Shown in pieces: positions 47,209 to 51,729 of a stretch of DNA of 64,000 bases. Source of the DNA: Haloarcula nitratireducens (GTDB taxonomy: Archaea; Halobacteriota; Halobacteria; Halobacteriales; Haloarculaceae); NCBI RefSeq assembly GCF_019599505.1, contig NZ_RKLT01000006.1, positions 62,001-126,000 on the forward strand, given 5' to 3'. The notes beneath the pieces are model-generated. The model was given only the letters and a program-made list of their open reading frames with translations, ran no database searches and was not told the origin of the DNA. A program made the position numbers and the translations under genes. The stretch's first letter is position 1; each line of letters begins with the position of its first letter.

Positions 47209-48791
47209 GCGCGCTACGCGAGAACTGGCGTATCGCCGCGTTGATCGTCCTCTTGCTAGTGAGCGCCGTGGCGCTGTTCGTCCCCGGCGTCCCGCCGGGT
47301 AGCACCCCCGCGGCCAACAACTCCTCGACCGCCGCCGACGAGGGAATGACGAACCTCCAGTACGGCATCGAACTGAACGGCGGGACGCGCATCCGCGCCC
47401 CGGTCGTCGGCATCACGGCCGAGGGCGTCGACGTACCGACGAACAACACGCGGCGGACCCAACTCGAACAGACGCTGGCAAATAGTCTCGGCGTCGATAG
47501 CATCGATATCCAGGCTGTGCCGCGGGCCGAGGGCGGGACCGTCGAGGTGTTCTCGAAGAACGTTTCGACCTCGGAGTTGCAGACGGCCTTAGAGAACGAG
47601 GGCTACCAACCCGAGACGGTCCGACAGGGCGTGACCGAACAGACGCGCGAGGAGATGGTCGAGGCGATCGATCAGAAGATCTCCACGTCGGCGCTCTCGG
47701 GCGGGACGGTGACGCAGGCCCGCACCAGCGATCGCAACTACATCGCGATCACGGCCCCCGATAAGGACTACGAGGAACTGCGCAGCATCCTCGAGGACCG
47801 GGGTATCGTCCGGATGTACGCCTACTATCCGGCCGAGAACGGGACTTACGTCCGTAAAGCCGTGTTAGACCAGGGAGCCGAGGCGATACGGGGGACCGGG
47901 ACGATAGAGCAGCGACAGACGGCTTCCGGCGGCGAGTCGTACACGTTCTCGGTCACGATGGAGGAGGGGGCCGCAGAGGCGTTCGCACGGGAGATGGCCG
48001 CCGCCGGATTCGGGAACGGCGGGTTCTGTAGCCCACAGCAGGCACAGGCCAGGGGGCAACCCGTCGAGTGTCTCCAGGTCACTTACGAGGACGAGATCGT
48101 CTTCAACGGCAGCGTCCAGCCCGGACTGGGTAGTTCCTTCGCCGACGGCTCCTTCGCCGAGAACCCGACGCTGACCATCGAGGTGCCGTCCCGAGAGAAG
48201 GCCCAGCAGGTGAAACTCAGCCTCGACGCGGGACAGCTCCCCGCGCCGCTGAACTTCGACCCGCAGGTGACCCAGACGCGCTCGCTCGAACCGGCGCTGG
48301 CCGACCAGTTCAAGACGAACTCGCTGATAACCGGACTGCTCGCCGTCGTCGCCGTCAGCATGGTGGTCTACGGACGTTACGGCCGAGCGGAGGTCGCGCT
48401 GCCGATGATCGTGACGGCGCTCTCGGAGGTGTTCATCCTGCTGGGCTTCGTCGCGTTCGTTCAGTACCCGCTGAACTTATCGCACCTGGCGGGGTTCATC
48501 GCCGTCATCGGGACGGGGGTGGACGACCTCATCATCATCGCCGACGAGATACTTCAGCAGGGGAAAGTCGAGACCGGCCGCGTGTTCCAGAACCGCTTCC
48601 GCAAGGCGTTCTGGGTCATCGGCGCGGCCGCGGCGACGACCATCGTCGCCATGAGTCCGCTGATGGTGCTCTCGCTCGGCGACCTCTCCGGGTTCGCCAT
48701 CATCACCATCGTCGGCGTCCTCATCGGCGTGCTGGTGACGCGACCGGCCTACGGTGACATCCTCCGAACCCTCGTGATAGACGAGGACTGA
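47205..48791 (+). CDS. secD: Protein translocase subunit SecD
   Basis: A 528-residue partner of SecF. It has one N-terminal helix, a large extracellular P1-like domain (about 40-350; ELNGGTRIRAPVV is the D1 motif), and five C-terminal helices with HLAGFIAVIGTGVDDLIIIA, the D4-type motif carrying the conserved Asp pair. Normal length for haloarchaea. Confidence 0.95.
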   Translation: MSALRENWRIAALIVLLLVSAVALFVPGVPPGSTPAANNSSTAADEGMTNLQYGIELNGGTRIRAPVVGITAEGVDVPTNNTRRTQLEQTLANSLGVDSIDIQAVPRAEGGTVEVFSKNVSTSELQTALENEGYQPETVRQGVTEQTREEMVEAIDQKISTSALSGGTVTQARTSDRNYIAITAPDKDYEELRSILEDRGIVRMYAYYPAENGTYVRKAVLDQGAEAIRGTGTIEQRQTASGGESYTFSVTMEEGAAEAFAREMAAAGFGNGGFCSPQQAQARGQPVECLQVTYEDEIVFNGSVQPGLGSSFADGSFAENPTLTIEVPSREKAQQVKLSLDAGQLPAPLNFDPQVTQTRSLEPALADQFKTNSLITGLLAVVAVSMVVYGRYGRAEVALPMIVTALSEVFILLGFVAFVQYPLNLSHLAGFIAVIGTGVDDLIIIADEILQQGKVETGRVFQNRFRKAFWVIGAAAATTIVAMSPLMVLSLGDLSGFAIITIVGVLIGVLVTRPAYGDILRTLVIDED

Positions 48792-48880
48792 GCGGGCGAT
48801 ATCACCTCGTCGTCTCTTCTCTCCCTCGCCGGCAGACGGCTTCGTTTCGTCTCGGCTGTTCGCTGGTGTTTGGTACCGTA

Positions 48881-48906
48881 TGACAAATTAATTTAGATTG
48901 ACTTAT
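48881..48906 (+). promoter_or_regulatory. Putative promoter of the structured RNA
   Basis: The run TGACAAATTAATTTAGATTG followed by ACTTATG stands out against a GC-rich background. TTTAGA (48892-48897) or CTTATG (48902-48907) could be the TATA element, placing a start at about 48918-48932. Confidence 0.45.
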
Positions 48907-48914
48907 GTCCTCGC

Positions 48915-49290
48915 GCGGCGTAGGTACTATTCCCGCTGGAACGCGGGGATACACTGAACGACGCGTCTCAGAACCGTCCGCACAGGGCGTGAAGGGACAC
49001 GTTGGGGGCAAGAACCGAGCAGTCTGTCACAGGACTCCGAGGGTAACGCTCTGAAGGAGAACCGCCGCGGCCCATCGCCGGTCCGGCCGGCCGGATCGGT
49101 AGCAAGGCCAACTACCGGACGTCACGTAAGCGGCGTTCGGGAACCTGGTACGTCGGCAAGGCTGGTGAGAGCCCGGCTAAAGTCCACGCGGACAAGGCCG
49201 GTGGAAGCCCGGCTAAACGCCGACAGTGTGCCAGCACGGTCGCAGGGGCCGTCGAAAACATCTCCCGTTCAGGTCCAAACCGCGTTCGCG
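48915..49290 (+). ncRNA. Candidate structured non-coding RNA
   Basis: Multiple helices can be drawn. There is an 8-bp hairpin ATTCCCGC/GCGGGGAT (48929-48950, one G-U), an 8-10-bp hairpin CGGTCCGG/CCGGATCG at 49079-49098, and CGGTAG/CTACCG around AGCAAGGCCAA at about 49097-49117. A closing helix GTCGGC (49152-49157)/GCCGAC (49219-49224) encloses three hairpins: GGCTGG/CCGGCT (49160-49178), GTCC-ACGC-GGAC (49182-49193) and GGCCGG/CCGGCT (49196-49214). The first and third lie in 24-nt units (49158-49181, 49194-49217) identical at 21 positions, flanked by AA and AAA. It lacks the core motifs of RNase P RNA and SRP RNA. Function unknown; ends are approximate. Confidence 0.5.
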
Positions 49291-49305
49291 GGGTCTTTCC
49301 AGCTG

Positions 49306-49941
49306 TCAGAACTCGCCCAGCGTCGCCTGTTCGGCGGCCGCGAGCACGTCCTCACAGGTAGACCACGACGTCCGCGCGCAGTCGGGTAGGTCGCCGTGGC
49401 GAGTTACGTAGTTCGCCAGAAATTCTCTCGTCGTCGGGTCGCTCGGATAGCCCGACCCGACGTCGCCGTACGTCTCACCGAGCGTCGCGACGTGGGCGTC
49501 GCGGGCCACTTTCGCCACGATAGAGCCGGCCCCCACCAACGGGTCCGTCTCGTCGGCCCCGTGTTCGGCGGTGACGGTCACGTCGGCGGTCACCCGGTCG
49601 GCCACGCGGCGGCCGAACCGTTCGGCGTCCGTGTCGCCCGCGTCGACGGTGCCCGCGAGGCCGTCGCTCGCCACGCCCGAGAGCGCCTCGGCGTGGGCGG
49701 CGACGGTCAGCGCGTTCATGTCCGTCTCCGGGTCGTCGATGCGAGCGACCGGGATCTCCGCGACGGCGACGGCGTCGGCGGCGCTCCGAATCTCCGCCGC
49801 CAACTGTTCGCGCCGCTCGGGGGCGATGCCTTTCGAATCGCCGACACCCGCCGGGAGGCTCCCCGGCTCGGCCCGGACGGCCGCGGCGAACATCGATCCG
49901 AGCACGGGTCCCTTGCCGGCCTCGTCGACGCCGAATCGCAT
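49306..49941 (-). CDS. rnhB: Ribonuclease HII
   Basis: Removes RNA from RNA/DNA hybrids and single ribonucleotides from DNA. The 211-residue protein begins MRFGVDEAGKGPVLGSM with catalytic Asp6 and Glu7, GVGDSKGIAPERRE, and GSIVAKVARDAH, the later metal-site region, with the fourth acidic residue near the middle. Length matches archaeal RNase HII. It converges on the structured RNA candidate. Confidence 0.94.
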   Translation of the reverse strand: MRFGVDEAGKGPVLGSMFAAAVRAEPGSLPAGVGDSKGIAPERREQLAAEIRSAADAVAVAEIPVARIDDPETDMNALTVAAHAEALSGVASDGLAGTVDAGDTDAERFGRRVADRVTADVTVTAEHGADETDPLVGAGSIVAKVARDAHVATLGETYGDVGSGYPSDPTTREFLANYVTRHGDLPDCARTSWSTCEDVLAAAEQATLGEF

Positions 49942-50451: not shown

Positions 50452-51729
50452 CTACTCTTTGAAGAACTCGGCTTTGGCGAACGGTTCGCTCTCCCCTTCG
50501 ACGTCGACCACGTCCAGCGCGGTCACGACGGCGTCGACGCCCAGCAATCCGGCCAGGCTCGGGTCGGTTCGGCCGCCGTCGCTGGAGACCAGTTCCTTCA
50601 CGTAGAGACCGCCCGCGCCGTGGATGCGGATGTCGGCGTGGCGCTCGTCGACGAGTTCGCCGCTCGCGGCGTAGACGTCCCGCGTTCGGGTGAGGTCGGC
50701 CCGCCGGTGGGCGACCCGCTGTGGCGTCTCCTGTTCGACGGTCGTCCCTTCGAGTTCGTCCAGCGCCGTCCGTAACGCTTCTTCCGTCACCGGTTCCGAG
50801 AACTCGACGTCCATCCGGTAGGTCTTCGAGGCGTCGAGTTCCTTCACCCGCTCGACCATCTCGTGAGTCGCCAGCCGCAGCCCCTCGACCTCGACTTTCC
50901 CGTCGGCGAACTCGTTGATCTCGCGTTCGAGCGCGTCGGTGTCGACGTCTCGGGTCCGGGGCGAGTCCACCTCGATGACGAACGGCCGCCCGGATTCGAG
51001 CATCAGCGCGTCGACGTCCTCGCGGCCCGCGCCGTGAAACGTCGCCGCCGACCCGTCCATCGCCTCCTCGACGACGGGCGCGGAGAGCTGCTCGACGCTC
51101 TCGTCGTAGCGGTACCCGGTCCCGTCACAGCCGTCACAGGGCTGACCCTGATAGAGGCCGGTGCCGTTGCAGTCGTTACAGGGCCACTTCGTCTGGGGGA
51201 TGTCCCGCTGTAGCTTGCGGTAGCGGCCGTAGACGAACGCGGAGTTGACCTGCACGTCCACCTCGTCGGTCGAGAGGTCGAGCGTGAACTGCACGTCCGG
51301 CCGCCCGAACTCGACTTCGGTGTCGGTCAGGCGGCCGATTCGCTTGCCCACTTCGCGGTTGAGTTCCGTCTTCAGGGCCTCGCCCGAATCCGGGTCCAGC
51401 CCCACGTCCTCTCGCAGAAGGGCGTCGTTCTCCTCGAACAGCGGCGGCACCTTCGTCCCCACCTGATAGGTCTCGAAGTCGTAGCCCCGGGCGGCGGTGG
51501 CGGCCTGTTCGGCCCACCAGTCGACGCGGTCGGTCTCGCCCTCACACACCCAGCAGTCCTCGCTCGCCTCGAACGGCTCGTCCGCTTCGAGCGCGAGTGA
51601 CACGCGCAGCGCGTGGCCTCGCTCGGCGTTCGCCAAGCCGAAACTCCGCTCGGCGAACAGCCGACCGAGACAGGCGTCACAGAGCGGGCCGGTGTCGAGT
51701 GCGGCCCGTGTGACCTCTAGTACGTTCAT
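50452..51729 (-). CDS. pus10: tRNA pseudouridine synthase Pus10
   Basis: Makes pseudouridine 54 and 55 in archaeal tRNA. The 425-residue protein has the N-terminal THUMP-like zinc domain with CDACLG and CWVCEG, a second Cys set CNDC/CDGC around 190-205, and the catalytic C-terminal domain with HGAGREDVDALMLESGRPFV, where the Asp is the nucleophile, and GAGGLYVKELVSSDGGRTDP. Complete and typical. Confidence 0.94.
   Translation of the reverse strand: MNVLEVTRAALDTGPLCDACLGRLFAERSFGLANAERGHALRVSLALEADEPFEASEDCWVCEGETDRVDWWAEQAATAARGYDFETYQVGTKVPPLFEENDALLREDVGLDPDSGEALKTELNREVGKRIGRLTDTEVEFGRPDVQFTLDLSTDEVDVQVNSAFVYGRYRKLQRDIPQTKWPCNDCNGTGLYQGQPCDGCDGTGYRYDESVEQLSAPVVEEAMDGSAATFHGAGREDVDALMLESGRPFVIEVDSPRTRDVDTDALEREINEFADGKVEVEGLRLATHEMVERVKELDASKTYRMDVEFSEPVTEEALRTALDELEGTTVEQETPQRVAHRRADLTRTRDVYAASGELVDERHADIRIHGAGGLYVKELVSSDGGRTDPSLAGLLGVDAVVTALDVVDVEGESEPFAKAEFFKE

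Follow-up and report, generated by a model that had tools for sequence, protein, structure and literature searches.

The 64,000-nucleotide stretch of Haloarcula nitratireducens DNA analyzed here (hereafter the window) contains, between secD, which ends at 48791 on the forward strand, and rnhB, which occupies 49306-49941 on the reverse strand, a spacer that is filled by a forward-strand RNA gene. The AT-rich, promoter-like block that an earlier note on this DNA had described in the spacer is indeed present (48880..48909, +), many relatives have a similar sequence ahead of their RNA, and we take it to be a BRE/TATA-like element; a sigma-70 scan, which does not cover archaeal promoters, called no promoter-like site in 48880..48909. 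Transcription of the RNA is probably driven by a promoter of its own. A coding reading of the spacer was set aside because relatives differ by insertions, deletions and paired changes, and the varied genomic places at which the RNA sits show that it is not the leader of one gene. The segment 48932-49299 (+) is a stand-alone non-coding RNA gene of salt-loving archaea.

The proposal of the earlier note that a structured RNA lies in the spacer holds, and the RNA proved larger than described there: the 376-nt fold has a z-score of -2.98, equalled by one of 100 shuffles, and its helices covary. The checks suggested there included a search of Rfam and a covariance model built from homologues. Our covariance model, R1, is based on 14 chosen sequences (317 positions, 67 pairs) and matched all 46 loci supplied end to end, with 74-326 bits over 210-488 nt, a count that is no independent test of frequency, since 13 of these had served to train it and the remainder were known from BLAST or R1 beforehand. 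All 46 matches, some of them close relatives, underlie the counts given below for helices, T-arms, K-turns, loops, end pairing and the bulge-helix-bulge (BHB); L065 and L077 (copies) and L085, L090 and L091 (odd) were left out of the comparison by eye. In the model-fitted alignment of the 46, 93.5% of the cells are paired and 53 of the 67 pairs show double changes, with a covariation score of 0.495 as against 0.187 when partners are dealt anew and at most 0.094 when they are slid. The MAFFT alignment of the training sequences behaves similarly (94.3% paired; 42 of 67 pairs doubly changed; score 0.464 versus 0.208 dealt anew and at most 0.100 slid). We regard it as near certain that this is a real RNA family with a conserved fold.

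The fold includes long-range helices beyond those of the earlier note, at 48954-48960/49266-49272, 49056-49060/49261-49265 and 49067-49073/49246-49252. The first of these, P1 (5' strand CUGAACG, 48954..48960, pairing with 49266-49272; 97.2% paired, with double changes at 4 of 7 pairs), is followed on the forward strand by the P2 arm (48961..49002, pairing 48961-48968/48995-49002; 89.5% paired, 8 of 8 doubly changed) and by an arm of helices 3-5, P3-P5 (49005..49052), with a GUMACA-type loop in 37 of the 46 relatives. Next come the 5' strands of P6 (GGAGA, 49056..49060, pairing with UCUCC at 49261-49265; 95.7% paired, 4 of 5 doubly changed) and P7 (GCGGCCC, 49067..49073, pairing with 49246-49252; 94.4% paired, 7 of 7 doubly changed), the P8 hairpin (49080..49101, ends approximate; 95.0% paired, 6 of 7 doubly changed), the 5' strand of P9 (GGCC, 49106..49109, pairing with 49238-49241; 95.1% paired, 2 of 4 doubly changed) and the 11-bp P10 hairpin (49115..49140; 90.7% paired, 6 of 11 doubly changed). 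The P10 loop, GUAA in the window, belongs to the GNRA type in 45 of 46 relatives. The forward-strand segment 49246..49272 carries the 3' strands of P7, P6 and P1 together with a conserved GAAAAC internal loop, which lies between the long-range helices P6 and P7 and is found in at least 38 of the 46.

The three-hairpin junction of the earlier note is present, with the closing helix at 49152-49157/49219-49224 (GUCGGC/GCCGAC), two 24-nt stem-loops identical at 21 of 24 bases and the hairpin GTCC-ACGC-GGAC, but it is only an accessory domain (49152..49224, +; middle hairpin 49182-49193), proper to the long forms and compared here across 16 long-form relatives, of an RNA that as a whole spans about 48932-49299. 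A pattern made from both stem-loop copies occurs nowhere else in the window than at these two, versus 0.05 expected. The copies contain T-arm-like hairpins of 5 bp with 7-nt loops, at 49161..49177 (loop UGAGAGC) and 49197..49213 (loop UGGAAGC), both on the forward strand, which fit the T-loop pattern. By this pattern, at least one T-arm-like hairpin is found in 25 of 25 long forms (at least 310 nt) and 2 of 21 short forms (at most 257 nt); the 51 hairpins in total, of which at least 4 are matches to the conserved internal loop and not to domain hairpins, compare with a mean of 1.4 and a maximum of 6 in 200 mononucleotide shuffles. Across the 16 long forms, pairing in the three hairpins reaches 98.2%, with double changes at 7 of the 14 pairs and a covariation score of 0.296 (0.152 with partners dealt anew, no more than 0.135 with partners slid); a count of pair types in the same hairpins and long forms did no better than its shuffles. 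All 16 of 16 are able to form a closing helix of 5-9 bp, counting the best stretch in each without a control. A Pus10 gene, encoding a tRNA pseudouridine(54/55) synthase that acts on T-loops, lies at 50452-51729 (-) in the window, two genes from the RNA; as the RNA is found elsewhere in other genera, this proximity is probably due to chance.

Comparison with Rfam 15 at the gathering score retrieved no known family over the RNA of the window or over its relatives at 11 other loci, where the only matches, to a tRNA and an eL15 leader, fall outside it. This agrees with the statements of the earlier note that the RNA is neither an RNase P RNA nor an SRP RNA; moreover, the archaeal RNase P RNA (RF00373), which has no match in the window, was found as a separate, true copy elsewhere in all 12 RNA-bearing genomes tested. 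Up to an E-value of 5, Rfam has a single match to the spacer, over 17 nt, to a hairpin of the Twister-sister ribozyme (RF02681; E 3), rejected at 14.9 bits against a gathering score of 34: the likeness is confined to one hairpin of similar sequence, T-arm-like hairpin 2, and the rest of the motif is unmatched. The guess that the RNA might bind L7Ae or guide pseudouridylation found its best footing in the internal loop between helices 4 and 5, where 23 of 46 relatives have a K-turn-like GA on each strand. The rest lack it, whereas an L7Ae K-turn calls for a conserved tandem GA/AG beside a 3-nt bulge; in addition, no H/ACA or other guide family of Rfam matched, and no ACA box is conserved by eye, so that we consider such a role very improbable. 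A mobile or viral origin was likewise set aside, with no match in plasmids or phages and one viral pattern scan empty; a second such scan gave 23 stretches and a single weak R1 match (E 0.91). A search of openly accessible journal papers turned up nothing recognizable as this RNA. The accessible text of one paper reports an sRNA in vesicles, HVO_2908s, which has relatives in both H. volcanii and Hbt. salinarum (PMC10927574). The RNA class is real and uncatalogued.

With respect to its distribution, the RNA stands beside rnhB at 5 of 33 rnhB loci from public genomes (nhmmer; identity 93-75%), all of them from Haloarcula or Halomicroarcula, whereas Halapricum hydrolyticum, Halorarius halobius and the MAG QS_8_69_26 have it in a different location. 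Of 392 genomes of the order, 46 gave a BLAST match at E 1e-5; R1 identified the RNA in 27 of 117 genomes of one set, absences being less sure because the whole-genome R1 search scored 14 or 10 candidates per genome. When 21 genomes without the RNA, including 15 with the gene for the protein HARP discussed below, were searched again with 81 candidates each, the best E-value was 0.09; G007, G019 and G022 are counted as lacking the RNA by BLAST alone. A further 36 genomes carry it (35 from BLAST plus G016), 27 of them confirmed by R1 and 9 recognized by BLAST alone. In 157 genomes of the phylum R1 matched eight, five already known and three new and distant (G404, G413 and G422), whose RNA stretches have 34, 36 and 59% GC. 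An ion-channel gene with TrkA domains adjoins the RNA in both AT-rich genomes (L210, L211). One genome, G111, has at C1:1321997-1322179 a second, weak R1 match (E 0.006; L209, L213) in addition to a full RNA beside HARP.

The two ends of the RNA come together in an ordered architecture: an outer helix, a 3-nt bulge on the 3' strand, a 4-bp helix, a 3-nt bulge on the 5' strand, and P1. In the window the 5' strand of the outer helix (48932..48946, consisting of CCCGC, a TG bulge and GAACGCGG) pairs with 49280-49292 in a duplex of -28.2 kcal/mol with 8 contiguous pairs, and the central helix is formed by GGAU (48947..48950) and GUCC (49273..49276). The flanking bulges, ACA (48951..48953) and AAA (49277..49279), are predicted cut sites of the splicing endonuclease. 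The 3' strand of the outer helix runs on into UCUUU (49280..49299, + like all these elements), a possible terminator, which is not among the calls of a terminator scan. The strict 3-4-3 BHB, with at least 3 outer pairs, is present in the window and in 36 of 46 relatives, as against a mean of 0.06 (maximum 2) with shuffled flanks and of 14.2 (maximum 21) when the 3' flanks are dealt anew among relatives; it is also present in 2 of the 3 distant relatives. Native ends pair with a mean of -27.3 kcal/mol versus -18.4 kcal/mol for exchanged ends, and out of 46 possible partners the native one ranks first in 14 cases and among the top three in 28. At the same time the letters of the central helix vary (GGAC/GUCC, GGAG/CUCC, GAAC/GUUC, AGAC/GUCU, and AGGC/GCCU in the distant L210).

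Since the BHB is the shape of an archaeal splicing endonuclease substrate, a circle is predicted, and this end structure makes a circular product of about 326 nt likely; the exact place of the cuts inside the bulges is our assumption. According to the available portion of PMC7714728, the H. volcanii enzyme requires an element of the form hBHBh'. A linear RNA, for which the end structure would be a mere closing stem and terminator, would accord with the U-rich stretch after the outer helix, with the 10 of 46 relatives that lack the strict geometry and, as far as the same portion of that paper goes, with circRNA-seq of H. volcanii, an organism with HARP and no Rnl3, in which seven BHB circles are reported, none between 103 and 1658 nt and hence none of this kind (PMC7714728). 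However, the 3-4-3 geometry would be superfluous for a terminator, and yet it is kept in 36 of 46 despite the changing letters, which renders the linear reading doubtful.

A candidate partner for the RNA emerged from its gene neighborhoods. Among reading frames around the RNA, but not overlapping it, in 40 relatives and the window, the largest cluster is one gene, present at 15 loci, which matches PF08745 and TIGR03875 ('RNA ligase partner') and is thus HARP; tblastn places it near the RNA at 14 of the 40 relatives' loci. HARP is a protein-only RNase P homologue and PIN_5 protein, as described in the accessible text of PMC12153264, which gives the family as PF09745, as against PF08745 in our profile scan. 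In one distant genome the RNA has a PIN gene next to it (L212, 7045-7611, +), which was rejected as HARP: its product is a PIN_6 protein with a zinc-ribbon-like end. In the set of 117 genomes, 39 have HARP (TIGR03875 over cut-off) and 28 have Rnl3, all 28 of the latter being among the former. HARP occurs in 24 of 27 genomes with the RNA versus 15 of 90 without (Fisher 8e-12, a figure that ignores kinship), in 32 of the 36 further RNA-bearing genomes, and in all three distant ones, where it is not adjacent, giving 59 of 66 overall. The two genes lie within 2.5 kb of each other in 18 of the 59 (G016, G034, G042, G051, G065, G098, G102, G103, G109, G111, G127, G133, G135, G143, G149, G168, G202 and G318), with HARP downstream and convergent, upstream and divergent, or beyond Rnl3 (G098). 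The window contains neither HARP nor Rnl3; its close relatives G334 (97%) and G001 (94%) have HARP, farther from the RNA.

Could the RNA have some unrelated role, RNA and HARP both being patchy in the same halophiles and their neighborhoods inherited? Seven of the 66 RNA-bearing genomes lack HARP (G040, G055, G105, G321, G367, G375 and G381), 41 of the 59 with both have HARP more than 2.5 kb away, and the statistics ignore kinship. Furthermore, the RNA is missing from 21 HARP-bearing genomes, all of them with Rnl3 (15 in the set of 117 and 6 among 12 others tested), which shows that HARP can do without it. Against such an explanation stands the rarity of the RNA where HARP is missing (only 3 of 78 genomes of the 117 set), as well as adjacency in differing arrangements: on a quick HARP tree of 81 rows, adjacency requires 6 changes and the RNA itself 14, so that RNA-bearing genomes are spread over the tree. 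(On this tree, absence of Rnl3 outside the 117 set means not near HARP; G015 has two rows, for two HARP genes (L243, L244), one on a very long branch.) It is also at odds with the distribution of Rnl3, for the RNA is present in 11 of 11 genomes of the 117 set with HARP and no Rnl3 but in only 13 of 28 with both proteins (Fisher 0.002, kinship ignored). Hence an unrelated role appears unlikely, and we favor HARP as the likely partner of the RNA, a partnership suggested by co-occurrence and gene adjacency; the association is strong but correlative and ignores kinship.

The RNAs of genomes without HARP also bear on this partnership. The three lowest R1 scores of the 46 (L151, L139 and L161) come from such genomes, two other RNAs from them score high (L150 and L163, 196.7 and 188.6 bits), and only 1 of 5 of their RNAs retains the strict BHB, versus 34 of 40 from genomes with HARP (window left out). 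In these small numbers, it looks as if the RNA decays after loss of HARP. The genome G105, with no HARP match, has the RNA twice, as a strong copy (L150) and a weak one (L151).

In the 117 set, none of the 39 HARP-bearing genomes is without both Rnl3 and the RNA, as could be expected if the RNA were an antitoxin restraining HARP in the manner of type III systems, with Rnl3 as an alternative safeguard. Type III antitoxins are small repeats, unlike this RNA. While the place of HARP in a VapC-like PIN group, stated in the accessible text of PMC12153264, would suit an antitoxin, archaeal HARPs show activity of the RNase P type and not of a degradative kind, and a degradative role is called unlikely in the part available of PMC10941002; we judge the antitoxin reading quite improbable.

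The reading that we prefer, with a probability of roughly 0.6, is that of a structured stand-alone RNA, probably circular and BHB-processed, that works with HARP. The RNA gene would be transcribed from its own promoter. The ends of the RNA pair into a canonical BHB, in which the splicing endonuclease would cut both bulges; the splicing ligase would then join the two ends of the body, giving a circle of about 326 nt as in the case of archaeal pre-rRNA. HARP would then bind the RNA, which could be either its dedicated substrate or an RNA that holds and directs it, neither being preferred. In long forms binding may proceed via the T-arm-like hairpins, through docking of the T-loops. The RNAs beside HARP (14 of 40 fetched loci; within 6 kb) are short forms without the T-arm domain, which therefore cannot be the general link between the two. 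Among genomes with both RNA and HARP, the long form occurs in 8 of 13 with Rnl3 versus 1 of 11 without it (Fisher 0.013, with G034, at 272 nt, counted as short), only a hint of a tie to Rnl3 and one confounded by kinship. More tentatively, we envisage a dedicated circular RNA of HARP in halophilic archaea, which would be spliced out, would offer T-arm knobs or another elbow mimic, would be opened by HARP and, where Rnl3 is present, resealed by it. Were this true, the opening and resealing of such a circle would explain what HARP is for in archaea.

These possibilities matter in view of what has been reported on HARP, whose knock-outs in two archaea grow like the wild type, according to the available text of PMC10941002, and whose occurrence without Rnl3 is left unexplained in that of PMC12153264. 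The secD-rnhB RNA is a concrete candidate partner for archaeal HARP, and its presence in all 11 genomes of the 117 set with HARP and no Rnl3 bears on the latter question. Large, deeply conserved RNA classes without a catalogued relative are uncommon, the more so with a possible protein partner at hand; the RNA is also likely to be a new substrate of the splicing endonuclease that is neither rRNA, tRNA nor mRNA.

Among known systems, the archaeal RNase P RNA (RF00373) resembles it in size, in being single-copy-like, in a GNRA loop and in the link to an RNase P-type enzyme, and differs in that the secD-rnhB RNA has no Rfam match. With the archaeal pre-16S and pre-23S rRNAs, tRNA introns and the HVO_1309 5' UTR it shares the hBHBh', whose 4-bp helix and pair of 3-nt bulges enclose a body, but here these would belong to a stand-alone structured non-coding RNA gene, neither rRNA nor intron, for which cutting and circle are predictions. 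Finally, the pair of HARP and Rnl3 shows a similarly patchy distribution around HARP, as presented in the accessible text of PMC12153264, where that link is between proteins and no dedicated RNA is named. In contrast, the RNA described here goes with HARP also in the 11 genomes without Rnl3.
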